NCBI GenBank assembly: GCA_903930515.1 | Contig: CAIYYW010000130.1 | Coordinates: 1 to 11,108 of the forward strand | Direction: 5' to 3' | From: an uncultured delta proteobacterium | GTDB taxonomy: Bacteria; RBG-13-61-14; DRUE01 | DNA length: 11,108 nt | Part shown: in pieces, positions 66-4,902 of the stretch | Layout: every line of letters begins with the position of its first letter | Position numbering within the stretch: position 1 is the first letter of the stretch | The notes under the pieces: model-generated | What the model saw: the letters and a program-made list of their open reading frames with translations, nothing else | Told to the model about the DNA's origin: nothing | The model's database searches: none | Program-made: the position numbers and the translations under genes

Positions 66-296
66 ATGGTTAAAATAACAGGGATGGGCGCAAATGCGAA
101 ATTCGGCCTGATGGTTTTAGCCACCTTGTCCATAATGGTCCTGCTGGTGGTCAGCGGTGAGAGACGGGATTTGAAAGCAGGGGCCGCGTCAAAAGTGGAT
201 CTGAAGCAGATTCAGGCGCAGGTTTCCGCGGGCAATTTGACCCTTCATCTTGCGGAGTTTGGGAAGAAACTTGGCTCAACGGAGGACGCTGAATGA
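66..296 (+). CDS. small single-pass membrane protein upstream of amrS (AmrS N-terminal-like module)
   Basis: A 76-residue protein with one hydrophobic segment (about residues 14-29) followed by a short polar tail expected outside the membrane. The tail carries L58-T-L-H-L-A-E-F-G-K-K-L69. From my knowledge of the family, this resembles the [E]AxFYxKL segment that normally precedes the first cysteines of AmrS. The AmrS encoded next lacks that segment. The stop overlaps the amrS start (ATGA, 293-296), and the GGAGG of amrS at 281-285 lies inside this ORF, so translation of the two is probably coupled. The ATG at 66 has no visible Shine-Dalgarno. The frame stays open to the left edge of the window, so the real start may lie outside it. 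It could be a split-off N-terminus of AmrS, an independent anchor, or a peptide substrate. I do not know a named family for it. Confidence 0.55.
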   Translation: MVKITGMGANAKFGLMVLATLSIMVLLVVSGERRDLKAGAASKVDLKQIQAQVSAGNLTLHLAEFGKKLGSTEDAE

Positions 297-1273
297 GCAA
301 GGGTTATGTTCAATGCCTGCTCTGCCCGAAGCAATGCGTTCTGGGTCCGGAGGAGCGCGGCGATTGCCGGGTGCGGATCAACTACCAGGGAGATTTGGTC
401 GCCCTGACCTATGGCAAGCCCTGTACGGTGCATAAGGATCCGGTGGAAAAAAAACCGATGTTTCATTTCTTGCCGGGAACTTACGCCTTTTCTTTGGCCA
501 CGGCCGGATGCAATCTCCATTGCAAGTTCTGCCAGAACTGGGAAATCTCTCAAATCAACCCGGAGGACGCCAAGAATATGGACTTGAACCCTAAAGCTGC
601 GGTTGATTACGCGCTCAAGAGCGGGTGCCGGAGCATCGCCTATACCTATTCCGACCCGATCATTTTTTATGAATACACCTATGACATCTCGGTTTTGGCT
701 CGGAAGGCCGGTCTGAAGAATATCCTGGTCACGGCCGGGTTCATCAATGAGAAGCCCTGGCGCAAACTGTGCGAGGTCACGGACGGGGCCAATATAGACC
801 TCAAGGCATATTCCGAGGATTTTTATCGCCGGATTTGCAACGGCCAAATGGAGCCGGTTTTGAACGCGATCAAGGTGGCGGTGGAAATGGGGGTTGCGGT
901 TGAGATCACCAATTTGATCGTGCCCACCTTGAATGACGATCTGGAGATGATCAAGCGGATGGCCGGATGGATCCTGGAAAATATCGGCCCGGAATATCCG
1001 CTCCATTTCTCCCGCTTCTTTCCGCTCTACCAGCTTCGGGGGCTGCCGCCCACTCCTTCGGAAACCCTGGTAAGGGCCAGGGAGACCGCCCTGGGAGCGG
1101 GTCTTGATTATGTTTATATCGGCAATGTTGAGGTGGAGGGCGCGGGAAATACCTATTGCCCGAATTGCAAGAAAACCCTGATTGAACGGCAGGGATACCA
1201 GGTGAGCGAGCTCGGGATAATAAACGGCGCCTGCAAGTTCTGCGGAACGCAGATCAAGGGGGTATGGGGTTGA
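293..1273 (+). CDS. amrS: AmmeMemoRadiSam system radical SAM enzyme AmrS
   Basis: A 326-residue radical SAM protein of the pyruvate-formate-lyase-activating-enzyme-like group. The SAM/[4Fe-4S] motif CxxxCxxC is C73, C77, C80 in the sequence AGCNLHCKFCQNW. An N-terminal cysteine cluster (C8, C11, C15, C25; CLLCPKQC then RGDCRVR) is typical of AmrS. A C-terminal pair of CxxC motifs (C289/C292 and C314/C317) probably binds zinc or a further cluster. No signal peptide or membrane segment is seen, so it should be cytoplasmic. GGAGG at 281-285 lies 7 bases before the ATG, and an in-frame TGA at 290-292 fixes this as the start. Family knowledge places amrS with AmrA (AMMECR1) and AmrB (Memo), here fused two genes downstream. 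The reaction catalysed by the system is not established to my knowledge. The usual [E]AxFYxKL N-terminal segment is missing and appears instead on the upstream small ORF. Confidence 0.93.
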   Translation: MSKGYVQCLLCPKQCVLGPEERGDCRVRINYQGDLVALTYGKPCTVHKDPVEKKPMFHFLPGTYAFSLATAGCNLHCKFCQNWEISQINPEDAKNMDLNPKAAVDYALKSGCRSIAYTYSDPIIFYEYTYDISVLARKAGLKNILVTAGFINEKPWRKLCEVTDGANIDLKAYSEDFYRRICNGQMEPVLNAIKVAVEMGVAVEITNLIVPTLNDDLEMIKRMAGWILENIGPEYPLHFSRFFPLYQLRGLPPTPSETLVRARETALGAGLDYVYIGNVEVEGAGNTYCPNCKKTLIERQGYQVSELGIINGACKFCGTQIKGVWG

Positions 1274-1461
1274 TGGAAAAGAAAAAAAGCATCAAGCGTC
1301 GTAAATTTTTTGTCCTGATCGGAGTGGTCGCGCTCGGGATCGGCTGGCTGAGGAATTATTTTAAACCCGGCTCCGGCGGAAAATCCCGCTCTTGCCTGTC
1401 CCTTCACCCGGCCCGTTTTTATCAAAAACTTTTTTCCGCTTCCGATGGAGGCAAGCAATGA
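1273..1461 (+). CDS. small protein with Tat-like leader, between amrS and amrB-amrA
   Basis: A 62-residue protein starting at the ATG that shares its A with the amrS stop (TGATG, 1271-1275). An in-frame ATG at 1264 is possible but less likely. The N-terminus is a twin-arginine-like leader (K8-R9-R10-K11-F12-F13, then a hydrophobic stretch to about residue 26). The tail holds L42-S-L-H-P-A-R-F-Y-Q-K-L53, matching the tail motif of the small ORF at 66-296 (L, L, H, A, F, K and L identical) and the AmrS N-terminal [E]AxFYxKL segment. Its 3' end contains GGAGG (1447-1451), the ribosome site of the next gene, and its TGA overlaps that gene's ATG (ATGA, 1458-1461). No radical SAM domain follows. 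It may be a duplicated AmrS N-terminus whose catalytic part was lost, or a standalone exported peptide that partners AmrS. No family is recognised with certainty. Confidence 0.6.
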   Translation: MEKKKSIKRRKFFVLIGVVALGIGWLRNYFKPGSGGKSRSCLSLHPARFYQKLFSASDGGKQ

Positions 1462-3023
1462 AGATAAAAAATATCGCTTTTTTCTCTCTCGCGTTTTTCC
1501 TGCTATGCGCCGCGTGCAAGAAGCCCAAACCGGAAGCCGCGCAGGCGCCCGGCCGGGAACTTCCGGCGAGCGAGGGGACCTTCCCCGCAGTGGTTGCCGG
1601 CCAGTTTTATCCGGCTGATCCGGGGCAATTGCGAACGATGATCCAGGGCTTTCTGTCCCAGGCCCGGGTTGCGGAAATCCCGGCGCGGATTTTCGCGGTC
1701 CTGTCCCCGCACGCCGGGTATATCTTTTCCGGGCCGATCGCGGGATATTCTTACCGGGCGCTCCAGTCGCAGGGCAGTAAAAAATTCGTGATCATCGCGC
1801 CCAGCCACCACTATCCCGGAGCCGGCCAGGTCGCGGTTTTGAACGCGGACTATTACCAGACCCCGCTGGGCAAGGTAAAAATCAACCGCGATAAAGTCCG
1901 GGAATTATACGGCCTGGGGGATTGGGTCACCACGGACCCGCGCTATTTTTCAGAGGAGCACGCCGCGGAGGTGCAACTGCCGTTCTTGCAGACGATCGTT
2001 GGAGACGGCCTGGAAGTGGTTTTGATCGTGATGCCGGACCCGAGCCTGGAGATGACACAGAAGCTGGCGCAGGGTTTGCTCAAGGTTTTTCCCGGAGAAG
2101 ACTGGGTGTTCATCGCCAGTTCGGATATGAGCCACTACCATAGCAATGACCAGGCCCGGCAGATAGACCGGAACACCTTAAACCTGCTGGAGCAGATGGA
2201 CATCAGCCGGCTTTACCAGGAGGGGATGGGCACGGCGCGGACCGCGGAACTGTGCGGGATCGGCCCGGTGCTCACGGTGATGCAGGCCTTTAAAACTTTC
2301 CATTCCGGAACGGTCAAAATTCTAGCGGCGAAAAATTCCTTTGAGACCACCCAGGCCAACCCCGAGCGGGTGGTCGGGTACGGGGCCGCGCTGTTCCTGC
2401 TTCCCTCCGGCGCAACTCCGGCCCCGGCTTCCTCCCCGGCCGAAGTTGAGGAGTTGAAGCCTTACGGAGGAGACCTGACCCTGGACGAGAAAAAGGAATT
2501 GATGAAGCTGGCGCGATATTCGGTTGAGACCTATGTCCGGGAGGACCGGATTCCGGAAGTGGAAGTAAAACATCCCCGGCTCAAGGAATTGGGCGCGGCC
2601 TTTGTCACGCTCACGGAGCGCGGTCAGTTGCGCGGCTGTATCGGGCATGTCATCGCCCGGGAGCCTCTTTATTTGTGCGTGCGAGATGTGGCCTGCAGCG
2701 CGGCCAAGCAGGACCCGCGATTCCCGCCGGTCACCGCCGGGGAACTTAAGGATCTGGACTATGAAATCTCCCTGCTCTCCCCGCTCGCGCCGGTCAAAGA
2801 CCTGACCATCATCAAGGTCGGACGGGACGGGCTGGTGATGAGGATGGGGCCGTATCAGGGGCTGCTCCTGCCCCAGGTGCCGGTGGAGCAGGGATGGGAC
2901 CGGGAAGCCTTTTTAAGCCATACCTGCAATAAAGCCGGGATGGGATCCAATTGCTGGTCCAATCCGGAGGTTCAGATCCTCCGCTTCCAGGGATTGGTCT
3001 TCAAGGAAAAAGATTTGAAATAA
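1458..3023 (+). CDS. amrB-amrA: AmrB-AmrA fusion (Memo + AMMECR1), predicted lipoprotein
   Basis: A 521-residue fusion of the two partners of AmrS. Residues 1-20 form a lipoprotein-type signal ending CAAC (C20 as the lipidated Cys); the -3 position is Cys rather than the usual Leu/Val, so SPII cleavage is likely but not certain. Residues about 41-316 are the Memo domain: PHAGY (H85), PSHHY (H117), EEHAAEVQLPFL, SSDMSHY (D223, H226) and ELCG (C266). These match the His/Asp/Cys positions reported as metal ligands in human MEMO1. A Pro/Ala-rich linker (about 317-333) leads to the AMMECR1 domain (about 340-516), with its hallmark LRGCIG (391-396) and the LPQVPVEQGW segment. The start at 1458 is chosen over 1392 because GGAGG lies 6 bases upstream and a signal peptide follows at once. 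It is the last gene of the locus and ends 10 bases from a convergent gene. The function of the system is unknown. Confidence 0.92.
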   Translation: MKIKNIAFFSLAFFLLCAACKKPKPEAAQAPGRELPASEGTFPAVVAGQFYPADPGQLRTMIQGFLSQARVAEIPARIFAVLSPHAGYIFSGPIAGYSYRALQSQGSKKFVIIAPSHHYPGAGQVAVLNADYYQTPLGKVKINRDKVRELYGLGDWVTTDPRYFSEEHAAEVQLPFLQTIVGDGLEVVLIVMPDPSLEMTQKLAQGLLKVFPGEDWVFIASSDMSHYHSNDQARQIDRNTLNLLEQMDISRLYQEGMGTARTAELCGIGPVLTVMQAFKTFHSGTVKILAAKNSFETTQANPERVVGYGAALFLLPSGATPAPASSPAEVEELKPYGGDLTLDEKKELMKLARYSVETYVREDRIPEVEVKHPRLKELGAAFVTLTERGQLRGCIGHVIAREPLYLCVRDVACSAAKQDPRFPPVTAGELKDLDYEISLLSPLAPVKDLTIIKVGRDGLVMRMGPYQGLLLPQVPVEQGWDREAFLSHTCNKAGMGSNCWSNPEVQILRFQGLVFKEKDLK

Positions 3024-3033
3024 ATGACGCGGC

Positions 3034-4140
3034 TTATCCGGCGAAAAATTCCTTGACCGAATTTACCACTTGATCCTGCTCCTGGTCGGTCATCTCCGGA
3101 AAGAGGGGCAGGGCGATGGATTTTTTGCTCGCCTGTTCCGCCACCGGGAATTTGCCGTTTTTGTCCAGATACCGCTTGAAGCAACTGAATTGATGGAACG
3201 GACGGGGATAGTAAAGCGAGAACCCGATCCCCTTTTGCCGGAACCGGTCCATTAACGCATCCCGCTGGTCCAGGGTGATGACAAAAGCATTATAGGTGTG
3301 CTTGCGGTCCGGCTTCTCTTCGGGCAAGCGGAGCGGAAGACCGGCCAACAGCTCCCGGTATCTTTTCGCCCTTGCCCTGCGCGCCTCAATCCATTGGTTC
3401 AGATATTTCAGCTTCACCCGCAACACCGCGGCCTGGATCGCGTCCAGACGACTGTTGATCCCGATCGTGGTCCGGTCTCCGGACCCCTTGGCGCCGTGAA
3501 CCCGCAGTTCGGAAAACCGCTGATACAACTGCTCGGAATCGGTCACCGCCATCCCGCCGTCCCCGAACCCGCCCAGGACCTTGGTCGGATAAAAACTGTA
3601 GCAGCTATATTCGCTCAAGCCCCCGATCTTCCGGCCCTGGTATTCCGACCCGATCGCCTGGCAGGCATCCTCAATCAAATACAAGTTCTCTTCTTTGGCC
3701 AAAGCCCGGATTCCATCCATCGCCGCGGGTTCCCCGAACAAATGCACCGGCAGGATGGCCCGGGTATGTTTTGTGATCTTGCTTGCAATCGCTTCCGGGT
3801 CCAGGTTAAAACCGTTCGCCTCAATGTCCACGAACACCGGCTTGGCCCCCGCCCAGCAGATCACGGCCGCGCTGGAAAAGAAGCTGTAAACCGAGGTCAG
3901 CACTTCATCGCCCGGGCCGATCCCCAGGGCCTTGAGCGAGAGCAACAGCGCGTCGGTCCCGCTCGCAACCCCGATCGCGTGTTTCACCCCCAGGTAATCG
4001 GATATTTCCTTCTCAAACGCCTCCAGCTCCGGGCCCAAAATAAACTGGTGGCTTAGAACCACCTGCATCATCGCCTGGTCTATTTCCGGCTTGATCCCCT
4101 GATACTGCCGCTTCAAATCCAGAAATGGCACTCCGTCCAA
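3034..4140 (-). CDS. DegT/DnrJ/EryC1/StrS-family PLP-dependent sugar aminotransferase
   Basis: About 368 residues, the usual length for enzymes that transaminate nucleotide-linked keto-sugars (amino-sugar donors for LPS, capsule or glycoprotein). It opens with the family hallmark VPFLDLKRQY. K187 in SFYPTKVLGG is the PLP-binding lysine, and D158 in EDACQAIG should contact the pyridine nitrogen. SGTDALLLS (residues 60-68) and GINSRLDAIQAAVL are further family motifs. Because the lysine is present, this is an aminotransferase rather than the dehydratase variant. The start is a TTG at 4138-4140 with GGGAGG a few bases upstream. A GTG at 4129-4131 and an ATG at 4221 are alternatives; the ATG would add 27 residues of non-family sequence. 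No other sugar-biosynthesis gene is visible nearby, so the substrate cannot be named. The gene lies 126 bases downstream of the zinc-ribbon gene on the same strand and converges on amrB-amrA with a 10-base gap and no visible terminator. Confidence 0.92.
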   Translation of the reverse strand: MDGVPFLDLKRQYQGIKPEIDQAMMQVVLSHQFILGPELEAFEKEISDYLGVKHAIGVASGTDALLLSLKALGIGPGDEVLTSVYSFFSSAAVICWAGAKPVFVDIEANGFNLDPEAIASKITKHTRAILPVHLFGEPAAMDGIRALAKEENLYLIEDACQAIGSEYQGRKIGGLSEYSCYSFYPTKVLGGFGDGGMAVTDSEQLYQRFSELRVHGAKGSGDRTTIGINSRLDAIQAAVLRVKLKYLNQWIEARRARAKRYRELLAGLPLRLPEEKPDRKHTYNAFVITLDQRDALMDRFRQKGIGFSLYYPRPFHQFSCFKRYLDKNGKFPVAEQASKKSIALPLFPEMTDQEQDQVVNSVKEFFAG

Positions 4141-4266: not shown

Positions 4267-4902
4267 TTATCTCAGCCCGATCAGATGGAACAGATGAGTG
4301 AAAAAGGCGATCGCCTCCGGGTCTTTCCGGTCCGGGGTCCAGGCAAAGGGAGCCAGCGCCATCTGGGCCAGCGCGTAATAGCCGAGCGTCAACTGCCCGA
4401 TCGCGACATATCCGGTGGCGAACTGGCCCAAGCCGAAAAAGATGCTGATCGCGAACTGGGCGATCGCGGTGGGCGCCATAATAAACTGTCCGAACCCGAA
4501 CAGAATGCCGATCCCGAACTGGGCAAGGGTGAACAGGCCGATGGCGAACTGGCCGATGGCAATAATCCCCTTTGCCACCCGCAATTTTCCTTCTTTCCTG
4601 CCAAAGGCGATATGGACCAGGGGCCAGCCGAAAACCGTAATGCTGCTCTTCCATTCAAAGCCCCAGTCCGGTTTCACCATCCTTTGAAAAAGAGCGGTCC
4701 CCGGCCCGGGAGCGCCGCAATGCGGACAGGTCGGCGCGCGATTGCTGAGCTCTTTTCCGCAGTCCGGGCACCGGGTCATTCCGGACGCGGTTCCAGGTGG
4801 AAATCCGGAAGATGCCGGCTGAATCGCAAAGCCGCAAGACGGACAAAAAGCATCGGTATCCTTCAACGGATTGCCGCAGTTTTGACAATTACTCTGCGCC
4901 AA
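4267..4902 (-). CDS. double zinc-ribbon protein with Gln-centred hydrophobic repeat tail
   Basis: A 211-residue protein. Two N-terminal zinc ribbons are visible: C6/C9/C20/C23 and C45/C48/C59/C62. A segment follows (about 81-113; FGWPLVHIAFGRK then RVAKGIIAIG) that I recall from an uncharacterised bacterial family with Gly-rich hydrophobic repeats. Residues about 113-186 form a hydrophobic tail in which [GA]Q recurs at Q118, Q128, Q139, Q149, Q160, Q170 and Q180, spaced 10, 11, 10, 11, 10, 10. The tail is probably membrane-embedded or membrane-associated, with the ribbons cytoplasmic. The start is a TTG at 4900-4902 with GGGAG 7 bases upstream. The repeat makes other frames open too, but only this frame has the zinc ribbons. 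It may share a transcript with the aminotransferase downstream. Function unknown. Confidence 0.85.
   Translation of the reverse strand: MAQSNCQNCGNPLKDTDAFCPSCGFAIQPASSGFPPGTASGMTRCPDCGKELSNRAPTCPHCGAPGPGTALFQRMVKPDWGFEWKSSITVFGWPLVHIAFGRKEGKLRVAKGIIAIGQFAIGLFTLAQFGIGILFGFGQFIMAPTAIAQFAISIFFGLGQFATGYVAIGQLTLGYYALAQMALAPFAWTPDRKDPEAIAFFTHLFHLIGLR
4391..4552 (-). repeat. imperfect tandem coding repeat, 30/33-bp alternating period
   Basis: Within the zinc-ribbon gene, aactg on the + strand (the Gln codon with its neighbour on the coding strand) recurs at 4391, 4421, 4454, 4484, 4517 and 4547. The spacings are 30, 33, 30, 33 and 30. The flanking bases (gcgaactgg, cccgaactggg, ggcgaactggc) are similar but not identical. 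The array therefore looks like an old internal duplication of a 63-bp double unit held by protein selection, not a recent slippage repeat. Confidence 0.75.

Follow-up and report, generated by a model that had tools for sequence, protein, structure and literature searches.

The window analysed here, a stretch of 11,108 nucleotides, spans the full length of contig C130 in a draft genome (G000) of 3.65 Mb and 401 contigs. It carried four overlapping genes, ORF1, amrS, ORF3 and memo-ammecr1 (Table 1). The ORF1 stop and the AmrS start overlapped in an ATGA at 293, the AmrS stop and the ORF3 start in a TGATG at 1271, and the ORF3 stop and the Memo start in an ATGA at 1458. Both small ORFs were found where the first-pass annotation had placed them, with the plain transmembrane segment described for ORF1 and the Tat-like IKRRKFF leader described for ORF3. 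ORF1 ended in LTLHLAEFGKKLGSTEDAE and ORF3 in LSLHPARFYQKLFSASDGGKQ. The true start of ORF1 may be 84 instead of 66, because the methionine at 84 was the one conserved in a genome of the same genus (G001). The Memo-AMMECR1 protein scored 182 bits for PF01875 and 181 bits for PF01871, and its two domains also exceeded the curated cut-offs of TIGR04336 and TIGR04335. Its N-terminus, MKIKNIAFFSLAFFLLCAAC, could be read as a signal peptide with a lipobox, whose -3 position was atypical.

Table 1. Features of the split amrS locus in the window and combined membrane proteins beside split amrS genes in relatives.
Feature	Location	Coordinates	Strand	Description
ORF1	window	66..296	+	membrane-anchored small protein, 76 aa (70 aa if start at 84); order: N-terminal transmembrane segment, linker, VDLKQIQAQVSAGN stretch, AmrS-N-terminus-like tail
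ORF1 transmembrane segment	window	102..152	+	FGLMVLATLSIMVLLVV; mean hydropathy 2.75
ORF1 docking-like tail	window	237..272	+	LTLHLAEFGKKL
AmrS, split form	window	293..1273	+	AmmeMemoRadiSam radical SAM enzyme; starts at MSKGYVQCLLCP; without leader and without EAxFYxKL
ORF3	window	1273..1461	+	62 aa; Tat-like leader and LSLHPARFYQKL tail; another start in the same frame at 1264
ORF3 twin-arginine-like motif	window	1291..1311	+	IKRRKFF
ORF3 docking-like tail	window	1396..1431	+	LSLHPARFYQKL
Exported Memo-AMMECR1 fusion	window	1458..3023	+	signal peptide and lipobox-like LCAAC; PF01875, PF01871, TIGR04336, TIGR04335
Combined membrane protein	L038	8700-12365		beside split amrS
Combined membrane protein	L048	8658-12569		beside split amrS
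Combined membrane protein	L050	8843-12664		beside split amrS
Combined membrane protein	L058	8745-12656		beside split amrS
Combined membrane protein	L096	2020-5658		beside split amrS

The AmrS of the window belongs to TIGR04337, since it reached 368.1 bits against a curated cut-off of 220, and it does so as a split form. The profile match began at position 9, and the protein held the CX3CX2C radical SAM motif with C73, C77 and C80 invariant. We surveyed 80 AmrS loci and then 60 more from other genomes (140 in total), the latter taken once the pattern had already been defined on the first 80. In those first 80, the majority of AmrS had a Tat or membrane leader followed by EAxFYxKL and VQCxLCP, and 23 began directly at MxxVQCxLCP, like that of the window. 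Across the 140 loci, EAxFYxKL was present in frame in 99 of the 104 unsplit AmrS and in none of the 36 split ones, bearing out the earlier claim that the AmrS of the window lacks its normal N-terminal segment. Although our survey shows this in-cis segment to be the rule in the family, it forms no part of what the curated cut-off of TIGR04337 requires. The leaders of the unsplit proteins were Tat-like in 70 cases, otherwise hydrophobic in 31 and absent in three (one of them masked by Ns), and EAxFYxKL sat immediately ahead of VQC, the strand leading into the first cysteine motif. The point of the split corresponded to a loop: fused proteins read EAxFYEKLxxG-VQC, whereas the split form reads EARHYEKLAG, a stop, and then MKKVRC. 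With the break placed in the loop that follows EKL, gene fission and then relocation is the simplest history.

The tails of the two small proteins were clearly alike. The LxLHxAxFxxKL ending attributed to both was recovered by tail alignment and by regular expression; the further shared S and D residues that had been pointed out were judged uninformative. Local alignment of the ORF1 and ORF3 tails gave a score of 38, above all 5000 shuffles (p = 0.0002), and the tails of the G001 orthologues, LSLHPGEFYRKL and ISLHPAQFYAKL, were closer to each other than the window pair (score 60, p = 0.0002). When the expression [LIVMF].LH.[AG].[FY]..[KR][LIM] was run over the window and 35 loci in all six frames, it matched only ORF1, ORF3, their G001 orthologues and one AmrS N-terminus (L013, LGLHEARYYTKL). 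Both small ORFs were retained in this same-genus genome, with identities of 59% for ORF1 and 53% for ORF3, and both are under purifying selection: pN was 0.25 and 0.38, respectively, against a pS of about 0.8 at synonymous sites that are saturated between the window and G001. Pfam and NCBIfam profile searches matched no family to ORF1 or ORF3. A search of the G000 genome for more copies of ORF3 returned the window copy only, the other matches to the ORF3 family profile being Tat-like leaders of unrelated large proteins. A SHOCT-like resemblance of the ORF1 tail was dropped, as its register was two residues off and no profile matched.

A set of 8262 stop-to-stop frames, each 40-110 aa long, was searched with a hidden Markov model trained on fused AmrS N-terminal segments only (49 rows). 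The eleven best matches were all small proteins adjoining split amrS, namely, in order, L057 ORF3, L041 ORF3, L039 ORF3, L043 ORF1, L057 ORF1, L056 ORF1, L043 ORF3, L068 ORF3, the window ORF3 (ninth), L061 ORF3 and L053 ORF3. The ORF1 of the window scored poorly (-0.4 bits); its G001 orthologue reached 8.1 bits, the maximum of the shuffles being 5.7. Position agreed with the profile. Of the 35 distinct split loci that could be evaluated, 34 encoded a small Tat-leader protein directly downstream of amrS. None of the 104 unsplit loci did; the few regular-expression matches there fell in the Memo gene or in frames that matched by chance. The count for split loci pools the window, L014, L005, L006, the first 80 loci and the 60 further loci, leaving out four that could not be judged (contig ends or Ns) and L140, a duplicate of L061. 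The downstream protein typically ended in EAxYY....LAG. At nine split loci from the PVC group, Desulfobulbaceae and others (L038, L042, L048, L050, L054, L058, L093, L111 and L133), the Tat protein after amrS instead had a YPGPVRPLD..GKWxG tail with no EAxYY, and ORF1 was missing, so docking through EAxFY cannot be universal. Upstream of amrS, 20 of 39 split loci encoded another small exported protein whose tail was of the same type; it mostly overlapped or lay close to the amrS start and had a membrane segment or, in the ORF1 relatives of L049 and L053, a cleavable-looking signal peptide. One split locus (L138) had ORF1 only. Among fused AmrS, ORF1 resembled those with a membrane leader (L045, L046, L128) and ORF3 those with a Tat leader. 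In L122, L123 and L141, the Tat-EAxFY segment was joined, in frame, to the Memo N-terminus. At L068, the gene that follows the small Tat protein with a 4-base overlap (2106-3089) looked like a polyprenyl synthetase.

Phylogenetic analyses with cytosolic AmrS as outgroup placed the leader-fused and split AmrS in one clade (support 99). Within it, 19 of the 21 split rows formed a clade (support 96), and the remaining two (L041 and L125) lay near membrane-leader fused forms. A larger unrooted tree required 3 changes for the split state, compared with 35 when the labels were shuffled. Since the split was clustered (2-3 changes across trees), the locus counts are not independent events, and their weight is that of retention over long divergence. 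The same clustering indicates that the split is old and was inherited or spread across genomes. By name, split-bearing genomes included Omnitrophota, Planctomycetota, Verrucomicrobia, Lentisphaerae, Hydrogenedentota, Elusimicrobia, Thermodesulfovibrionales, Desulfobulbaceae, an Escarpia endosymbiont, Aegiribacteria and the lineage of the window. This recurrence of the same split in about ten phyla excluded sequencing error. The proposed resemblance between the tail motif and the AmrS N-terminal segment was backed concordantly by profile, position and phylogeny, which likewise support the suggestion that this N-terminus has become a separate, duplicated and exported module.

Structure prediction gave a further view of the segment. 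The model of a fused AmrS (L063; mean pLDDT 95.5) showed strands Y39-K41 (YEK) and V47-C49 (VQC) flanking a short loop, with block pLDDT values of 91 and 98, respectively, and suggests that the two form a hairpin, one that could be completed by another polypeptide. In the model of the split AmrS of the window, a short V6-Q7 strand formed even without a partner, a prediction that would count against docking, though not decisively. The nearest solved folds were pyruvate formate-lyase activating enzymes, one of which has a bound peptide; 3cb8 gave a TM-score of 0.76-0.81 on target length.

Regarding export, ORF3 conformed to the Tat pattern of S/TRRxFLK followed by a moderately hydrophobic region. 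The motif was IKRRKFF in the window, ISRRKLF in G001 and TRREFLK in many relatives; in several others the pair was RK or KR, and the first arginine was the sole invariant column of the alignment (A4). No Pfam family matched the ORF3 of the window, and its relative in L039 reached the TAT_signal profile PF10518 at 13.9 bits, under the 22.7 cut-off. The G000 genome encoded TatC (PF00902, 232 bits). Co-export of a subunit that has no leader with a partner that bears a Tat leader, known as hitchhiking, is an established route (PMC10924467), and the split loci showed the corresponding gene arrangement of a leaderless cargo co-encoded with a Tat-leader partner. Because split AmrS nests among relatives with Tat or membrane leaders (101 of the 104 unsplit proteins), the AmrS of the window is itself probably exported. 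This makes the earlier model, a cytoplasmic AmrS whose substrate is made inside and moved out to the exported Memo-AMMECR1, the less likely one.

Altogether, we hold with moderate confidence that ORF1 and ORF3 are the leader-plus-docking segment of the AmrS N-terminus, detached, duplicated and flanking a shortened amrS, with ORF3 as a Tat carrier and ORF1 as an anchor. This reading is supported by the conservation of the small proteins, by their sequence relationship to the AmrS N-terminus, by the mutual exclusion between them and the in-cis segment, by the order of the genes, by the place of split AmrS in the trees and by the TatC of this genome. From these we infer binding of AmrS by ORF1 and ORF3, hitchhiker export, anchoring and catalysis outside the cytoplasm. 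AmrS would fold and gain its Fe-S cluster in the cytoplasm, the N-terminal segment being supplied in trans in the split form. The ORF3 tail would then dock on the exposed N-terminal edge of the folded enzyme, and its twin-arginine leader would take the leaderless AmrS along, as a hitchhiker, across the Tat translocon. ORF1, bearing the same tail on a Sec leader or signal anchor, could hold AmrS on the membrane's outer face near the Memo-AMMECR1 lipoprotein.

Radical SAM enzymes are generally regarded as cytoplasmic. SAM is not known to occur outside the cytoplasm, which counts against an extracytoplasmic AmrS. The cytoplasmic location of SAM would suit an alternative in which ORF1 and ORF3 dock a cytoplasmic AmrS in trans as inner-membrane anchors or recruiters, the Tat-like leader being a signal anchor, as would the ordinary transmembrane segment of ORF1 and the occasional RK or KR in place of the ORF3 twin arginine. 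However, any N-in anchor would leave the EAxFY tail outside, away from a cytoplasmic AmrS; moreover, the L049 and L053 ORF1s look cleavable and secreted, sister AmrS are Tat-fused and Memo-AMMECR1 is exported, so we consider this explanation unlikely.

We give even less credence to the idea, also raised in the first-pass annotation, that the small proteins are modified by AmrS, here taken as RiPP-like precursor peptides that would be exported to meet Memo-AMMECR1. They do adjoin a radical SAM enzyme whose closest folds are the pyruvate formate-lyase activating enzymes, including the peptide-bound one, and many ORF3s have a conserved C-terminal LAG or WxG, but the same segment lies inside the enzyme in 99 of the 104 unsplit AmrS and in cytosolic AmrS, and the peptide is missing wherever the segment is in cis. 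In addition, radical-SAM RiPP precursors have a separate leader and a variable core, and no variable core was seen in ORF1 or ORF3, whose tails stop within about 10 residues of the motif. An assembly frameshift or chance similarity, with ORF1 as a broken AmrS N-terminus and ORF3 as an unrelated small membrane protein, might be suspected from a draft assembly in which the end of ORF1 coincides exactly with the amrS start. Nevertheless, the same arrangement occurs under purifying selection in the genome of the same genus and again in many unrelated genomes, and the ORF3 tail is significant by profile, making this account extremely improbable; the frameshift artefact was rejected, the split being conserved in independent genomes.

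The genes near amrS in relatives were also compared in the first 80 loci. Among the 23 split loci, 14 had a membrane spermidine-synthase-like protein encoded nearby and 10 an FMN_bind/Fer4_5 membrane protein; among the 57 unsplit loci, the respective counts were 27 and 3. Five split loci combined the spermidine-synthase-like, FMN-binding and Fer4_5 parts in one membrane protein of 1200-1300 aa (Table 1). In G000, both families were encoded elsewhere than on the window contig. Separately, four leader-fused AmrS (L062, L080, L101 and L102) carried a CxxCH, in the variants CNACH, CAQCH, CRPCH and CVECH, lying after the EAxYY-like segment and ahead of the first catalytic cysteines. Such a motif possibly marks an exported radical SAM enzyme that binds haem c. 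These neighbours and CxxCH forms fit an extracytoplasmic redox system without proving it. We tentatively propose, as a possibility that we do not favour outright, an extracytoplasmic radical SAM system in which the N-terminal strand is borne by Tat carrier and membrane-anchor micro-proteins, and in which the FMN-binding/4Fe-4S and spermidine-synthase-like membrane genes of relatives would supply electrons and SAM-related chemistry.

Both AMMECR1 and Memo belong to families linked to human disease. The split locus is a variation on the known AmmeMemoRadiSam system; all three families (TIGR04337 AmrS, TIGR04336 Memo and TIGR04335 AMMECR1) were above their curated cut-offs in the window. It differs in that AmrS lacks the N-terminal segment, which is found instead in two exported small proteins, and in that Memo-AMMECR1 is one exported polypeptide. 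Leader-fused AmrS shares with it the segment, the clade, an exported Memo-AMMECR1 partner and, in relatives, the transmembrane spermidine-synthase-like neighbour, but is one polypeptide where the split system has two or three. The pyruvate formate-lyase activating enzyme 3cb8 is alike in fold, without the N-terminal cysteine motif, the leader or such partner peptides. Tat hitchhiker pairs such as NiFe hydrogenase and formate dehydrogenase (PMC10924467) similarly join a leaderless Fe-S enzyme to a co-encoded Tat-leader partner. In contrast, the ORF3 partner consists only of a leader and about 20-35 residues, with no cofactor subunit, and the putative cargo is a radical SAM enzyme. Our literature search found no account of exported AmrS or of ORF1/ORF3-type proteins; Burroughs et al. 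2019 (Memo contexts, cited in PMC7159879) lay outside it and may hold prior notice. If true, export of a split AmrS by way of a detached docking tag would tell where the AmmeMemoRadiSam system acts, and ORF3 would be a very small Tat carrier, made of a leader and one docking strand. A radical SAM enzyme that seemingly owes its export leader to a micro-protein bearing its missing strand is unusual, and the small-protein family defined here is easily overlooked in annotation.

Elsewhere in the window, the minus strand (4267-4902) encoded a zinc-ribbon protein with repeated hydrophobic AIxQFAIG-like units. Other contigs of the same genome (C248, C362 and C217) carried what looks like a parallel set, made up of another AmrS, truncated where its contig ends, and two more Memo genes.
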